NCBI RefSeq assembly: GCF_900109615.1
Contig: NZ_FOIX01000001.1
Coordinates: 310,001 to 374,000 of the forward strand
Origin: Kaistella antarctica
Lineage (GTDB): Bacteria; Bacteroidota; Bacteroidia; Flavobacteriales; Weeksellaceae
Length of the DNA stretch: 64,000 nt
Direction of reading: 5' to 3'
The position numbers and the translations under genes were made by a program. Position 1 is the stretch's first letter. Each line of letters opens with the position of its first letter. Below, piece by piece: positions 48,219 to 51,501 of the stretch. The notes under the pieces are model-generated. The model was not told the origin of the DNA, did no database searches, and saw only the letters and a list, made by a program, of their open reading frames with translations.

Positions 48219-49037
48219 CTATTTCTTTTCGATAATATATATCAAACTTGAATATTCGCCAGTTTTTGATGCTTTAAAATTAGAAATGAATCCGAAAATT
48301 AGTCCTTTGAGCCAAAAAAGAGAAGATTTCTTATATTTTTCACTTAACATTGAAATATAAAACGAATCGAGTAGGAGTGGTTTTATTTTTTTGACTTTCC
48401 AATCTTCGGTATTCATTAATTTTTCCATCCCAGATTTTGAGAAATGATAGACGTGTCTCGGGACATCGTATGCAGCCCAAAATTCTCTATATTTCAATGC
48501 ATCGTATGAAGTTGGATTTGGAACCGCGATAATTAGCATCCCTTTATTTTTTAGTTTATCATGAAATAAATGTAACATTTCTTTTTGATTTTCGATATGT
48601 TCGAAAACATGCCATAAAGTAATTGCATCTAAAGACTGACTTTCAATAAAATCTAGATTATAAATGATCTTAGTTTTTTTAACTTTTTGAAGTACATATT
48701 TGCGGGCAGATTCGCTAGGTTCAAATCCTAAAGTTTCAAAATCATTTTCGATATATTTTACAAATTCGCCAGCACCACATCCATAATCTAAAACTTTTTT
48801 ATCTTTTCCTACAAAATCAAATAGAATATTTCGCTTGTACCTCAGATTGAAGTTCTGCAACACTTTATATAATTTCTCTTTTAAAGATCCTGAATCTTGA
48901 TGATGAGAAATATAGTCGGTGCTATCATAATATTTCACAATATCTACTGGAATAGGGTGGGTTTTGAAAACGCCAGGAATAACGGTTTCCTTAATTTCGA
49001 ATTCTTCTTTAGTAAGAAAATGGTCTATAACTTTCAT
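48219..49037 (-). CDS. Class I SAM-dependent methyltransferase
   Basis: The 272-residue protein has SAM motif I KKVLDYGCGAGEFVKYIEN, the post-motif FEPSESAR, and ITLWHVFEHIENQKEMLHLFHDKLKNKGMLIIAVPNPTSYD, the Methyltransf_23 pattern seen in sugar- and lipid-associated methyltransferases. Residues 150-215 (EFWAAYDVPRHVYHFSKSGMEKLM) are also typical of that group. Substrate is unknown. It lies 40 bp downstream of mnmG, separated from it by a parS site. Confidence 0.87.
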   Translation of the reverse strand: MKVIDHFLTKEEFEIKETVIPGVFKTHPIPVDIVKYYDSTDYISHHQDSGSLKEKLYKVLQNFNLRYKRNILFDFVGKDKKVLDYGCGAGEFVKYIENDFETLGFEPSESARKYVLQKVKKTKIIYNLDFIESQSLDAITLWHVFEHIENQKEMLHLFHDKLKNKGMLIIAVPNPTSYDALKYREFWAAYDVPRHVYHFSKSGMEKLMNTEDWKVKKIKPLLLDSFYISMLSEKYKKSSLFWLKGLIFGFISNFKASKTGEYSSLIYIIEKK

Positions 49038-49061
49038 GTGGTAAATGGGAAACTCTGGATA

Positions 49062-49077
49062 TGTTTCACGTGAAACA
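49062..49077. other. parS site 1 (ParB binding)
   Basis: TGTTTCACGTGAAACA, a perfect 16-bp palindrome (18 bp with flanking A/T) identical to the canonical parS of chromosomal ParABS systems. It directly abuts the mnmG stop codon. Confidence 0.85.
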
Positions 49078-50937
49078 TTATTTCAAGTAAATTAATAAGA
49101 TGTTAATATCTGCAGGGGAGACACCACTAATTCTTGCTGCTTGTGCAATTGTTTTTGGACGCACTTTATTAAACTTTTGCTTTGCCTCAGCAGACAATGA
49201 TTTTAAATTATCATAATTAAAATCATCTCCGATTTTTATTGTTTCCAGTCGAGATAGTTTAGCAACATTATCTCTCTCTTTCTCAATGTAACCCTTGTAC
49301 TTAATATTAATTTCTGCTTGTTCTTTTACTTCTGTAGAATATTGATGAGTGACTTCCTTAATAAAATCAATTTCTTCTAATTTCTCCAAAGTCATATTAG
49401 GTCTGGTCAGTATTTGAGCGGACCGGTAAGCTTGGTCAACTTTAGCAGATGAGATAGTGTCTAAAATTGGATTAATAATTCCTGGTTTCAATGAGGTATC
49501 TCTTAAGAAACTCTCTAATTGATTACTTTTATTAATTTTCTCCTTAACTTTTATAAGACGTTCTTCGGATGCTAACCCTAAATTATAAGATTTTTCTGTC
49601 AGGCGAATATCTGCATTATCTTGTCTTAATAACAATCTATATTCTGCTCTGGAAGTAAACATGCGATAAGGTTCGTCAGTGCCTTTGGTAATTAAATCAT
49701 CTATAAGTACACCGATATATGCTTCATCTCTTTTAAGCGTAAAATCTTCTTTTCCGTGAACTTTATTATGAGCATTTATTCCAGCTATTAATCCTTGTCC
49801 AGCGGCTTCTTCATAACCGGTAGTGCCATTTATTTGCCCTGCAAAGTATAGATTTTCGATGAGCTTTGTTTCTAAGGTGTGGTTAAGTTGAGTAGGAGGG
49901 AAGTAATCATATTCAATGGCATAACCGGGTCTGAAAACCTTTGCGTTTGCAAATCCTGGTATATGTCGCATGGCTTTAATTTGAATATCTTCAGGCAATG
50001 ACGAGCTGAATCCGTTCACATAAATTTCAACTGTTCGCCACCCTTCTGGTTCAACAAACAATTGGTGACGTTCACGTTCAGCAAAACGATTAATTTTGTC
50101 CTCGATACTTGGACAATAGCGTGGGCCGATACTTTGGATCGTTCCATTAAACATAGGACTTCTGTCGAATCCTTCTCTTAATATTTCATGAACCGTTTCA
50201 TTGGTATAAACAATATGACAGCTCATCTGTTTTGTCAATTTGGGACTGTCTAGATAAGAGAAGTTTTTAGGATTTTCATCGCCTTTTTGCTCTTCCATTT
50301 TAGAATAGTCTAGGGACCTTCCGTCTACCCTTGGCGGAGTTCCCGTTTTCATACGACCTGATTCAAAACCTAAATCTACCAATTGTTCAGTAATTCCAAA
50401 CGCTCGCGGTTCTCCCATTCTACCGCCACCTAATTGCTTAATTCCAACGTGAATTAATCCATTAAGGAAAGTTCCGTTGGTCAGGACTACTGACTTTCCT
50501 CTAATTTCAAGTCCTAAAGAAGTGATTACTCCAACAACTCTACTTTTTTCTATGATTAAACTTTTTACCATATCTTGGAAAAAATCTAAGTTAGGAGTTT
50601 GTTCCAAAGCGATACGCCATTCTTCAGCAAATAACATTCGGTCATTTTGAGTTCGCGGTGACCACATTGCAGGGCCTTTGGAAAGATTGAGCATTTTGAA
50701 CTGAATGGCTGATTTATCTGCAATAATTCCAGAGTAGCCACCCATTGCATCAATTTCGCGAACAATCTGTCCCTTTGCAATTCCGCCCATGGCTGGATTA
50801 CAAGACATTTGTCCAATTGTCTGCATATTCATTGTTATAAGTAAGGTCTTCGAACCTAAATTGGCTGCGGCAGCTGCTGCTTCTGAACCAGCATGTCCTG
50901 CTCCTACTACAATAACGTCGTATATTTCGTTTATCAT
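49078..50937 (-). CDS. mnmG: tRNA U34 carboxymethylaminomethyl-modifying enzyme MnmG (GidA)
   Basis: FAD enzyme that acts with MnmE on wobble uridines. The 619 residues include the FAD-binding YDVIVVGAGHAGSEAAAAAANLG, SCNPAMGGIAKGQIVREIDAMGG and LGGGRMGEPRAFGITEQL, plus the C-terminal AARISGVSPADINILLIYL. gidA is a classic replication-origin neighbour in many bacteria. parS palindromes lie just beyond both ends of the gene. Confidence 0.96.
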   Translation of the reverse strand: MINEIYDVIVVGAGHAGSEAAAAAANLGSKTLLITMNMQTIGQMSCNPAMGGIAKGQIVREIDAMGGYSGIIADKSAIQFKMLNLSKGPAMWSPRTQNDRMLFAEEWRIALEQTPNLDFFQDMVKSLIIEKSRVVGVITSLGLEIRGKSVVLTNGTFLNGLIHVGIKQLGGGRMGEPRAFGITEQLVDLGFESGRMKTGTPPRVDGRSLDYSKMEEQKGDENPKNFSYLDSPKLTKQMSCHIVYTNETVHEILREGFDRSPMFNGTIQSIGPRYCPSIEDKINRFAERERHQLFVEPEGWRTVEIYVNGFSSSLPEDIQIKAMRHIPGFANAKVFRPGYAIEYDYFPPTQLNHTLETKLIENLYFAGQINGTTGYEEAAGQGLIAGINAHNKVHGKEDFTLKRDEAYIGVLIDDLITKGTDEPYRMFTSRAEYRLLLRQDNADIRLTEKSYNLGLASEERLIKVKEKINKSNQLESFLRDTSLKPGIINPILDTISSAKVDQAYRSAQILTRPNMTLEKLEEIDFIKEVTHQYSTEVKEQAEINIKYKGYIEKERDNVAKLSRLETIKIGDDFNYDNLKSLSAEAKQKFNKVRPKTIAQAARISGVSPADINILLIYLK

Positions 50938-50951
50938 TATGATCTTTTAAA

Positions 50952-50967
50952 TGTTTCACGTGAAACA
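50952..50967. other. parS site 2 (ParB binding)
   Basis: TGTTTCACGTGAAACA, identical to site 1 and 1.89 kb from it. It lies 14 bp upstream of the mnmG ATG, so ParB bound here could affect mnmG transcription. Confidence 0.85.
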
Positions 50968-51093
50968 TTACTTTGAATTAAATTATATGCTTTCTTTATC
51001 GCTCTAATTAATGTGCCATCGTATTGTAAATCCTTTCGGAGTACTAATCGTAGAATCGGGCGGAACAGTAGATGTAGATTCACCGGAAAGTTC

Positions 51094-51501
51094 CTAAAAG
51101 AGATTGAGATAAAGATCCTCTTTTCCCGTCATTTCATTCTGCTCATCTTCGGTTTTATCTTTGTAACCGCACAGATGAAGAAGTCCATGCGCCAAAACTC
51201 TGCGAAGTTCTGACTCAAAATCTTTTGAATGCTCCAGAGCGTTTTCAGAAATGCGGGGCAAAGATACAAAAATATCGGCCGAAATAGTTTTGCCTTTCAC
51301 ATAATCAAACGTAATGATGTCAGTATAATAATCATGATTTAAGAAATCTTGATTGACTTTCAGTAATCCCTCATCAGTCACGAATATATAATTGATTTTA
51401 CCCAGTTTCTTATTCTCTGCGATCACAAGTTTTTCTAACCACTCACTTGTTTGAGCGGTGATTTCGATGGAATCTATATTTTCGAAAAAAAATTGTATCA
51501 T
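51094..51501 (-). CDS. ybeY: rRNA maturation endoribonuclease YbeY
   Basis: Zinc-dependent single-strand RNase for rRNA processing. The 135 residues contain DIITFDYV, the substrate-binding DIFVSLPRI and the zinc motif HGLLHLCGYKD. Compared with HxxxHxxxxxH of most YbeY proteins, the first two His are present (His105, His109) but the third ligand position is Asp115. This may be a lineage variant. Five bp downstream of the patatin gene. Confidence 0.9.
   Translation of the reverse strand: MIQFFFENIDSIEITAQTSEWLEKLVIAENKKLGKINYIFVTDEGLLKVNQDFLNHDYYTDIITFDYVKGKTISADIFVSLPRISENALEHSKDFESELRRVLAHGLLHLCGYKDKTEDEQNEMTGKEDLYLNLF

Follow-up and report, generated by a model that had tools for sequence, protein, structure and literature searches.

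Two perfect copies of a 16-bp palindrome flank the gene mnmG in the DNA analysed here (a stretch of 64 kb, referred to as the window). Their sequence raises the question of whether they form a chromosomal parS centromere, and their position raises a second one, namely whether the expression of mnmG depends on them. A motif search of the 64-kb window for TGTTTCACGTGAAACA gave matches at 49062-49077 and at 50952-50967, with 0 mismatches each; these are the two exact copies of the parS 16-bp palindrome tGTTTCACGTGAAACa. No third site with up to 3 mismatches to TGTTTCACGTGAAACA was found by a mismatch search of the window. Both 16-mers are nested in the 18-bp palindrome ATGTTTCACGTGAAACAT. Site 1 abuts the stop codon of mnmG, with which the 18-mer shares one base, and is located 24 bp ahead of a downstream gene on the same strand; the ATG of mnmG follows 14 bases after site 2. 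An earlier note on this DNA had described two perfect 16-mers within an 18-bp palindrome, one touching the stop codon and one 14 bp before the start, and this description proved to be exact. The features of the locus are as follows.

49062..49077, no strand: putative parS site 1, a perfect palindrome of 16 bp, located after the mnmG stop codon and ahead of the downstream methyltransferase-like gene
50952..50967, no strand: putative parS site 2, a perfect palindrome of 16 bp, located 14 bp ahead of the mnmG start
49061..49078, no strand: extended 18-bp palindrome of site 1, two outer pairs conserved 95-97% in relatives
50951..50968, no strand: extended 18-bp palindrome of site 2, outer pairs conserved 96-100% (two) and 93% (third)
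49078..50937, minus strand: mnmG (gidA), tRNA uridine modification enzyme (TIGR00136, 852 bits), bracketed by both sites
51094..51501, minus strand: ybeY (TIGR00043), upstream neighbour
48219..49037, minus strand: methyltransferase-like gene, downstream neighbour, named from sub-cutoff matches

In the complete set of 6 contigs (3.13 Mb) only 2 exact copies of TGTTTCACGTGAAACA were present, both flanking mnmG and 1.89 kb apart. The genome scan proposed in the earlier note thus returned a few clustered sites, as expected of parS, rather than sites spread evenly over the genome. Two look-alikes with 2 mismatches occur elsewhere on the same contig (C6:154517 and C6:290658), which is about the level of chance because the reversed pattern, used as a control, gave 1 match at up to 2 mismatches in this genome. 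The reversed degenerate pattern also had one match there. The expected number of exact 16-mers, estimated with an order-1 Markov model, was 2.7e-5 per window, and the claim that a chance origin is unlikely was borne out by this figure. Shuffled sequences contained on average 0.61 sites, and at least 2 sites in 13 of 100 shuffles; these shuffles are uninformative on exact copies because 3 mismatches were allowed.

The lack of parA and parB, which the earlier note had named as an argument against parS, does not apply to this organism. A single ParB gene was detected; it is located on contig C5 (the sites are on C6) and directly follows the gene of a ParA-type ATPase, which had sub-cutoff NCBIfam matches only and was named from its sequence and gene place. 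The ParB is of the chromosomal type. It scored 181 bits against TIGR00180 (cutoff 58) and failed the Noc model with 240 bits (cutoff 315). It matched solved chains of ParB, Spo0J and Noc with a best E of 8.4e-52, and three of these alignments were free of gaps across residues 39-226. According to the part of PMC7383237 used here, R173 and G201 (Caulobacter numbering) are invariant among ParB proteins, and Noc has other residues there. By a hand count, made without the Caulobacter sequence alongside, the protein has Arg and Gly at these places and also keeps the shared residues Gln162, Gly170, Lys171, Asn178 and Arg204, and the contact position Ser172 is Glu. Mapped in this way, the residues which in that account set recognition of parS apart from that of the Noc site are present.

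The arrangement was also found in relatives. An exact search for the 16-mer in 60 genomes, this one included, gave a match in 37. Among the 36 genomes of the genus, 25 had two exact copies 1890-1939 bp apart (20 of them viewed directly at one site, 5 resting on the spacing alone), nine had one copy and two had none. All 11 genus genomes with fewer than two exact copies had two sites with 0-2 mismatches flanking mnmG. The gene adjoined the site in all 30 loci fetched, with one site taken from each of 30 of the 37 exact-match genomes. When the collection of named genomes was searched for MnmG, 553 relatives were found, and the best 80 loci served as the named relatives. The closest of these 80, with 96% identity, belonged to Kaistella sp. 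SH40-3, and Chryseobacterium supplied most of the rest; the window is therefore probably from a Kaistella. Exactly one GTTYCACGTGRAAC site on each side of mnmG was found in 76 of the best 80, and at least one such site in 79; the strict core site was present downstream in 77 and upstream in 78. The exceptions among the best 80 were a locus with no site (L290), one with a downstream site only (L299), one with two upstream sites (L306) and one with an upstream site only, in which the contig ends inside mnmG (L294). Conservation of the core is no evidence here, because the search motif fixed the core. Outside the 14-bp search motif, three upstream pairs were conserved 93-100% (72 distinct rows), and two downstream pairs 95-97%, with 0.77 and 0.73 for the third (75 distinct rows); the means of the flanks were 0.61 and 0.63 for comparison. 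A record of Riemerella anatipestifer filed as a plasmid (L353, NZ_CP081938.1 55286-69120; 101.9 kb) carries pckA, ybeY and mnmG, the last with one parS-like site on either side, and may be a mislabelled chromosome piece or a secondary replicon.

In a wider set, 53 of 58 mnmG loci had one or more strict sites no further than 1.5 kb away, a set biased to the order since loci were taken by best MnmG scores or from picked genomes; sites on both sides were present at 42, and none within 1.5 kb at L059, L060, L063, L091 and L092. When loci of the class were chosen by the motif alone, mnmG was present in 27 of 30. These were 30 of 105 motif-positive genomes, and 6 of the 30 overlap with genomes examined earlier. 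Two of the three loci that had no mnmG (L331, L339 and L342) are cut by contig ends, namely L339 and L342. Outside the class, a site was located within about 0.6 kb of mnmG in 15 of 17 single-contig genomes; in the other two the site was about 12 kb away (G235) or absent (G247). The degenerate motif matched 184 of 198 genomes of the phylum, compared with 10 of 198 for the reversed pattern in our own count. The motif search gave no strict site in 14 of 198 phylum genomes and in 14 of 119 class genomes. One genome (G222) had its site about 27 kb from mnmG.

The number and the place of the sites vary in some lineages. In the five genomes sampled from one family (f19; loci L315-L319 in G218, G234, G214, G120 and G093) the sites were off mnmG, at a distance of 118 kb in one genome and on other contigs in the remaining four. 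One site falls within the coding frame of a gene, which we take to be threonine synthase-like, in four of these five genomes, and the sites of the family stand beside what are presumably homoserine kinase and threonine synthase-like genes. It looks as if the centromere had moved in the family as a whole. Three loci of a single genus (L048, L071 and L073; family f3, genus g4) have 7-8 parS-like sites around mnmG, all but one of them upstream; in many relatives there are two. At L339 (G284, C24:13203-13809) seven GTTYCACGTGRAAC sites spaced 98-99 bp form a repeat array, and five further copies on other contigs bring the total in this genome to 12.

The relation of the sites to the replication origin was estimated from GC skew in five single-contig relatives. 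Twenty samples of about 20 kb were taken per genome, and origin and terminus were fitted. Expressed as a fraction of the half-chromosome, parS was 0.06 (G007), 0.24 (G226), 0.01 (G017), 0.06 (G190) and 0.13 (G030) from the fitted origin. For dnaA the distances in the same order were 0.67, 0.65, 0.60, 0.82 and 0.35, and for parB 0.79, 0.57, 0.68, 0.38 and 0.77. With random independent positions, all five parS distances would be 0.24 or less with p 0.0008, a value to be read as a guide only because the genomes are related and in two of them (G226 and G017) the samples were spaced more closely around parS. For G226 the fit puts the origin about 0.58 Mb away from parS, with near-best fits extending from 1.12 to 1.58 Mb and parS at 1.00, and the skew keeps its sign across parS. 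In G030 the skew around parS is irregular. These distances make dnaA look like a poor marker of the origin in the five genomes, since it is 0.35-0.82 of a half-chromosome away from the fitted one.

The skew of the contig that carries the window (C6) was weakly negative on the left (8 stretches) and weakly positive on the right (12 stretches) with strong noise, and was rejected as an origin locator for that reason. The 64-kb window contains 2 exact TTATCCACA DnaA boxes and one TTATGCACA, and no DnaA-box cluster near mnmG; an oriC inside the window was rejected on this ground.

The observations that bear on the identity of the palindromes are the sites themselves, their uniqueness in the genome, their conserved position, the pair of parA and parB genes and, in complete relatives, the nearness to the skew-fitted origin. 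They agree with the identification as parS made in the earlier note. The two palindromes very probably constitute the parS centromere of the chromosome, placed in its origin region; binding, clamp loading and segregation would proceed as in known ParABS systems. By analogy with these systems, the ParB encoded beside ParA on the other contig would recognise each palindrome, bind CTP and close into clamps, and the clamps would spread over mnmG and its neighbours. ParA would then be expected to shift the ParB complex with the origin region to opposite cell halves, so that the origin region would segregate first. That parS flanks mnmG is real and well supported, and the element is of a known kind in an unusually stable position.

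For the condensin proteins Smc and ScpA, genomes inside and outside the order gave different results. ScpA (PF02616) gave no match in a profile search of 22 genomes from the order, among them the present one, and Smc (TIGR02168) gave only weak sub-cutoff matches in the same 22. Outside the order ScpA was present in 19 of 19 genomes; Smc scored above the cutoff in 18 of 19 and was split into two pieces in the last. In one of the runs, scoring covered the best 12 candidates of each genome. Smc together with ScpA, as needed for a centromere that loads Smc-ScpAB, was accordingly recognised in none of the 22 genomes of the order, which cover five families, and Smc-ScpA has apparently been lost across the families sampled. 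With no recognisable Smc and ScpA in the order, the parS centromere here probably functions without that condensin. A comparable case is described in PMC10197239, where, in the part used here, no known condensin is reported for two gut Bacteroidetes.

The best-surviving alternative assigns the palindromes a role as cis operators, through which ParB or another regulator would control mnmG and the next gene, with segregation being secondary. Site 2 is within the mnmG leader and site 1 is placed ahead of a gene on the same strand, and the wide association of the sites with mnmG would fit such a role. An artificial parS upstream of a promoter also had a negative effect together with the ParB of P. 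aeruginosa, as described in the available part of PMC7022226; the same part states that loss of Spo0J in B. subtilis left genes adjacent to parS unaltered. The geometry of the sites argues against an operator. The gap between site and start ranged from 10 to 64 bp in the 77 named relatives (among the best 80 of 553) that have just one site upstream, and across the larger set of loci from 3 to 559 bp. Sites were found only downstream of mnmG at L051, L056 and L058 and inside its coding part at L326, L327 and L343, and they were off mnmG in the five f19 genomes sampled. As the spacing varies, some sites are coding and those of f19 are elsewhere, control of mnmG is not supported as the main role, and the operator reading appears very unlikely. 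The link between segregation and mnmG expression suggested in the earlier note found no support for the same reasons, to which the upstream-only loci can be added. ParB may still influence the transcription of mnmG as a side effect. The phasing of the sites relative to the 10.5-bp helical repeat was also computed and was set aside since related genomes dominate the set.

If the palindromes acted as RNA, they would form hairpins in the mnmG transcript, either a terminator or a leader structure, and a perfect inverted repeat right after the stop codon and another in the leader are what such a role would call for. Variants that keep a U-G pair on the sense strand numbered 24 in the 58 loci, compared with 26 that produce a C-A mismatch (two-sided p 0.89, the related genomes not being independent). 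Such a balance is expected of a site in double-stranded DNA and makes an RNA hairpin unlikely; as the motif also fits the parS consensus given in the part of PMC10197239 used here, this alternative is considered highly improbable. Chance or a dispersed repeat, for which the two 2-mismatch look-alikes on the same contig could be cited, is a negligible explanation in view of 0.0013 exact copies expected per genome, no match of the reversed pattern at 0 mismatches in any of 60 genomes, and the conservation in 76 of 80 named relatives and 27 of 30 class loci.

With the palindromes read as parS, the choice of mnmG as their neighbour would have a simple reason. The gene, as gidA, is listed among the ancestral origin genes together with parA, parB, gidB, dnaA, dnaN and others in the part of PMC2099444 used here, and parS would sit at mnmG because gidA is such a gene. 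Most likely, therefore, mnmG is the address of parS as an ancient origin-linked gene and not through regulation by ParB. The history inferred here is that dnaA and parAB left the origin, where parS and mnmG kept their place. A more far-reaching version, which is tentative and somewhat less likely to be right than wrong, is that parS-mnmG-parS is a fixed two-site centromere unit inherited from the ancestor of the phylum. It would have remained at the origin while dnaA and parAB left and become free of Smc-ScpA in the Flavobacteriales-type order, so that ParB would segregate the origin with no helper other than ParA, or else with a partner that has escaped recognition; the bracketing of mnmG might itself be under selection.

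The less ordinary aspects of the locus are the breadth of the association between parS and mnmG and the use of a centromere of two sites in an order where Smc-ScpA is not recognisable. No report of a phylum-wide mnmG position of parS was found in the literature searched (titles and the beginnings of abstracts), and prior publication is possible. If the association holds, the origin region could be marked by a simple sequence throughout a large phylum in which dnaA can mislead. It also draws attention to an order whose ParABS centromere is minimal, with two sites, and which has no recognisable Smc-ScpA; such an order would be a natural test of the role of ParB when the usual condensin cannot be loaded.

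Four known systems can be compared with this locus. The Noc-binding site is a related palindrome bound by a related protein family. Its sequence differs from that of parS. The base contacts described in the available part of PMC7383237 are also different, and the ParB encoded here is below the Noc cutoff. The ancestral origin cluster, in the part of PMC2099444 used here, likewise has gidA as an origin gene, but the cluster looks dispersed in this group, with dnaA and parB far from mnmG and parS in five relatives. A third comparison is with the parS sites of the gut Bacteroidetes Bacteroides caecimuris and Muribaculum intestinale (PMC10197239). According to the available part of that study, its 12 gut species have ParABS homologues and sites that fit the parS consensus, and dnaA does not systematically mark the origin. 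Consensus sites and an origin not tied to dnaA are shared with this locus, and no known condensin was found in the two Bacteroidetes; the same part of the text does not mention mnmG or gidA. The chromosomal ParABS system (Spo0J-Soj) differs from the present case in three respects: here only two sites are present and bracket one gene, mnmG; in five complete relatives, parAB and dnaA are set off from the fitted origin by 0.35-0.82 of a half-chromosome; and the 22 genomes of the order examined have no Smc above the cutoff and no ScpA. What the two have in common is an identical 16-bp palindrome in few clustered copies, a parA-parB pair and, in relatives, sites that sampled GC skew tends to place near the fitted origin.
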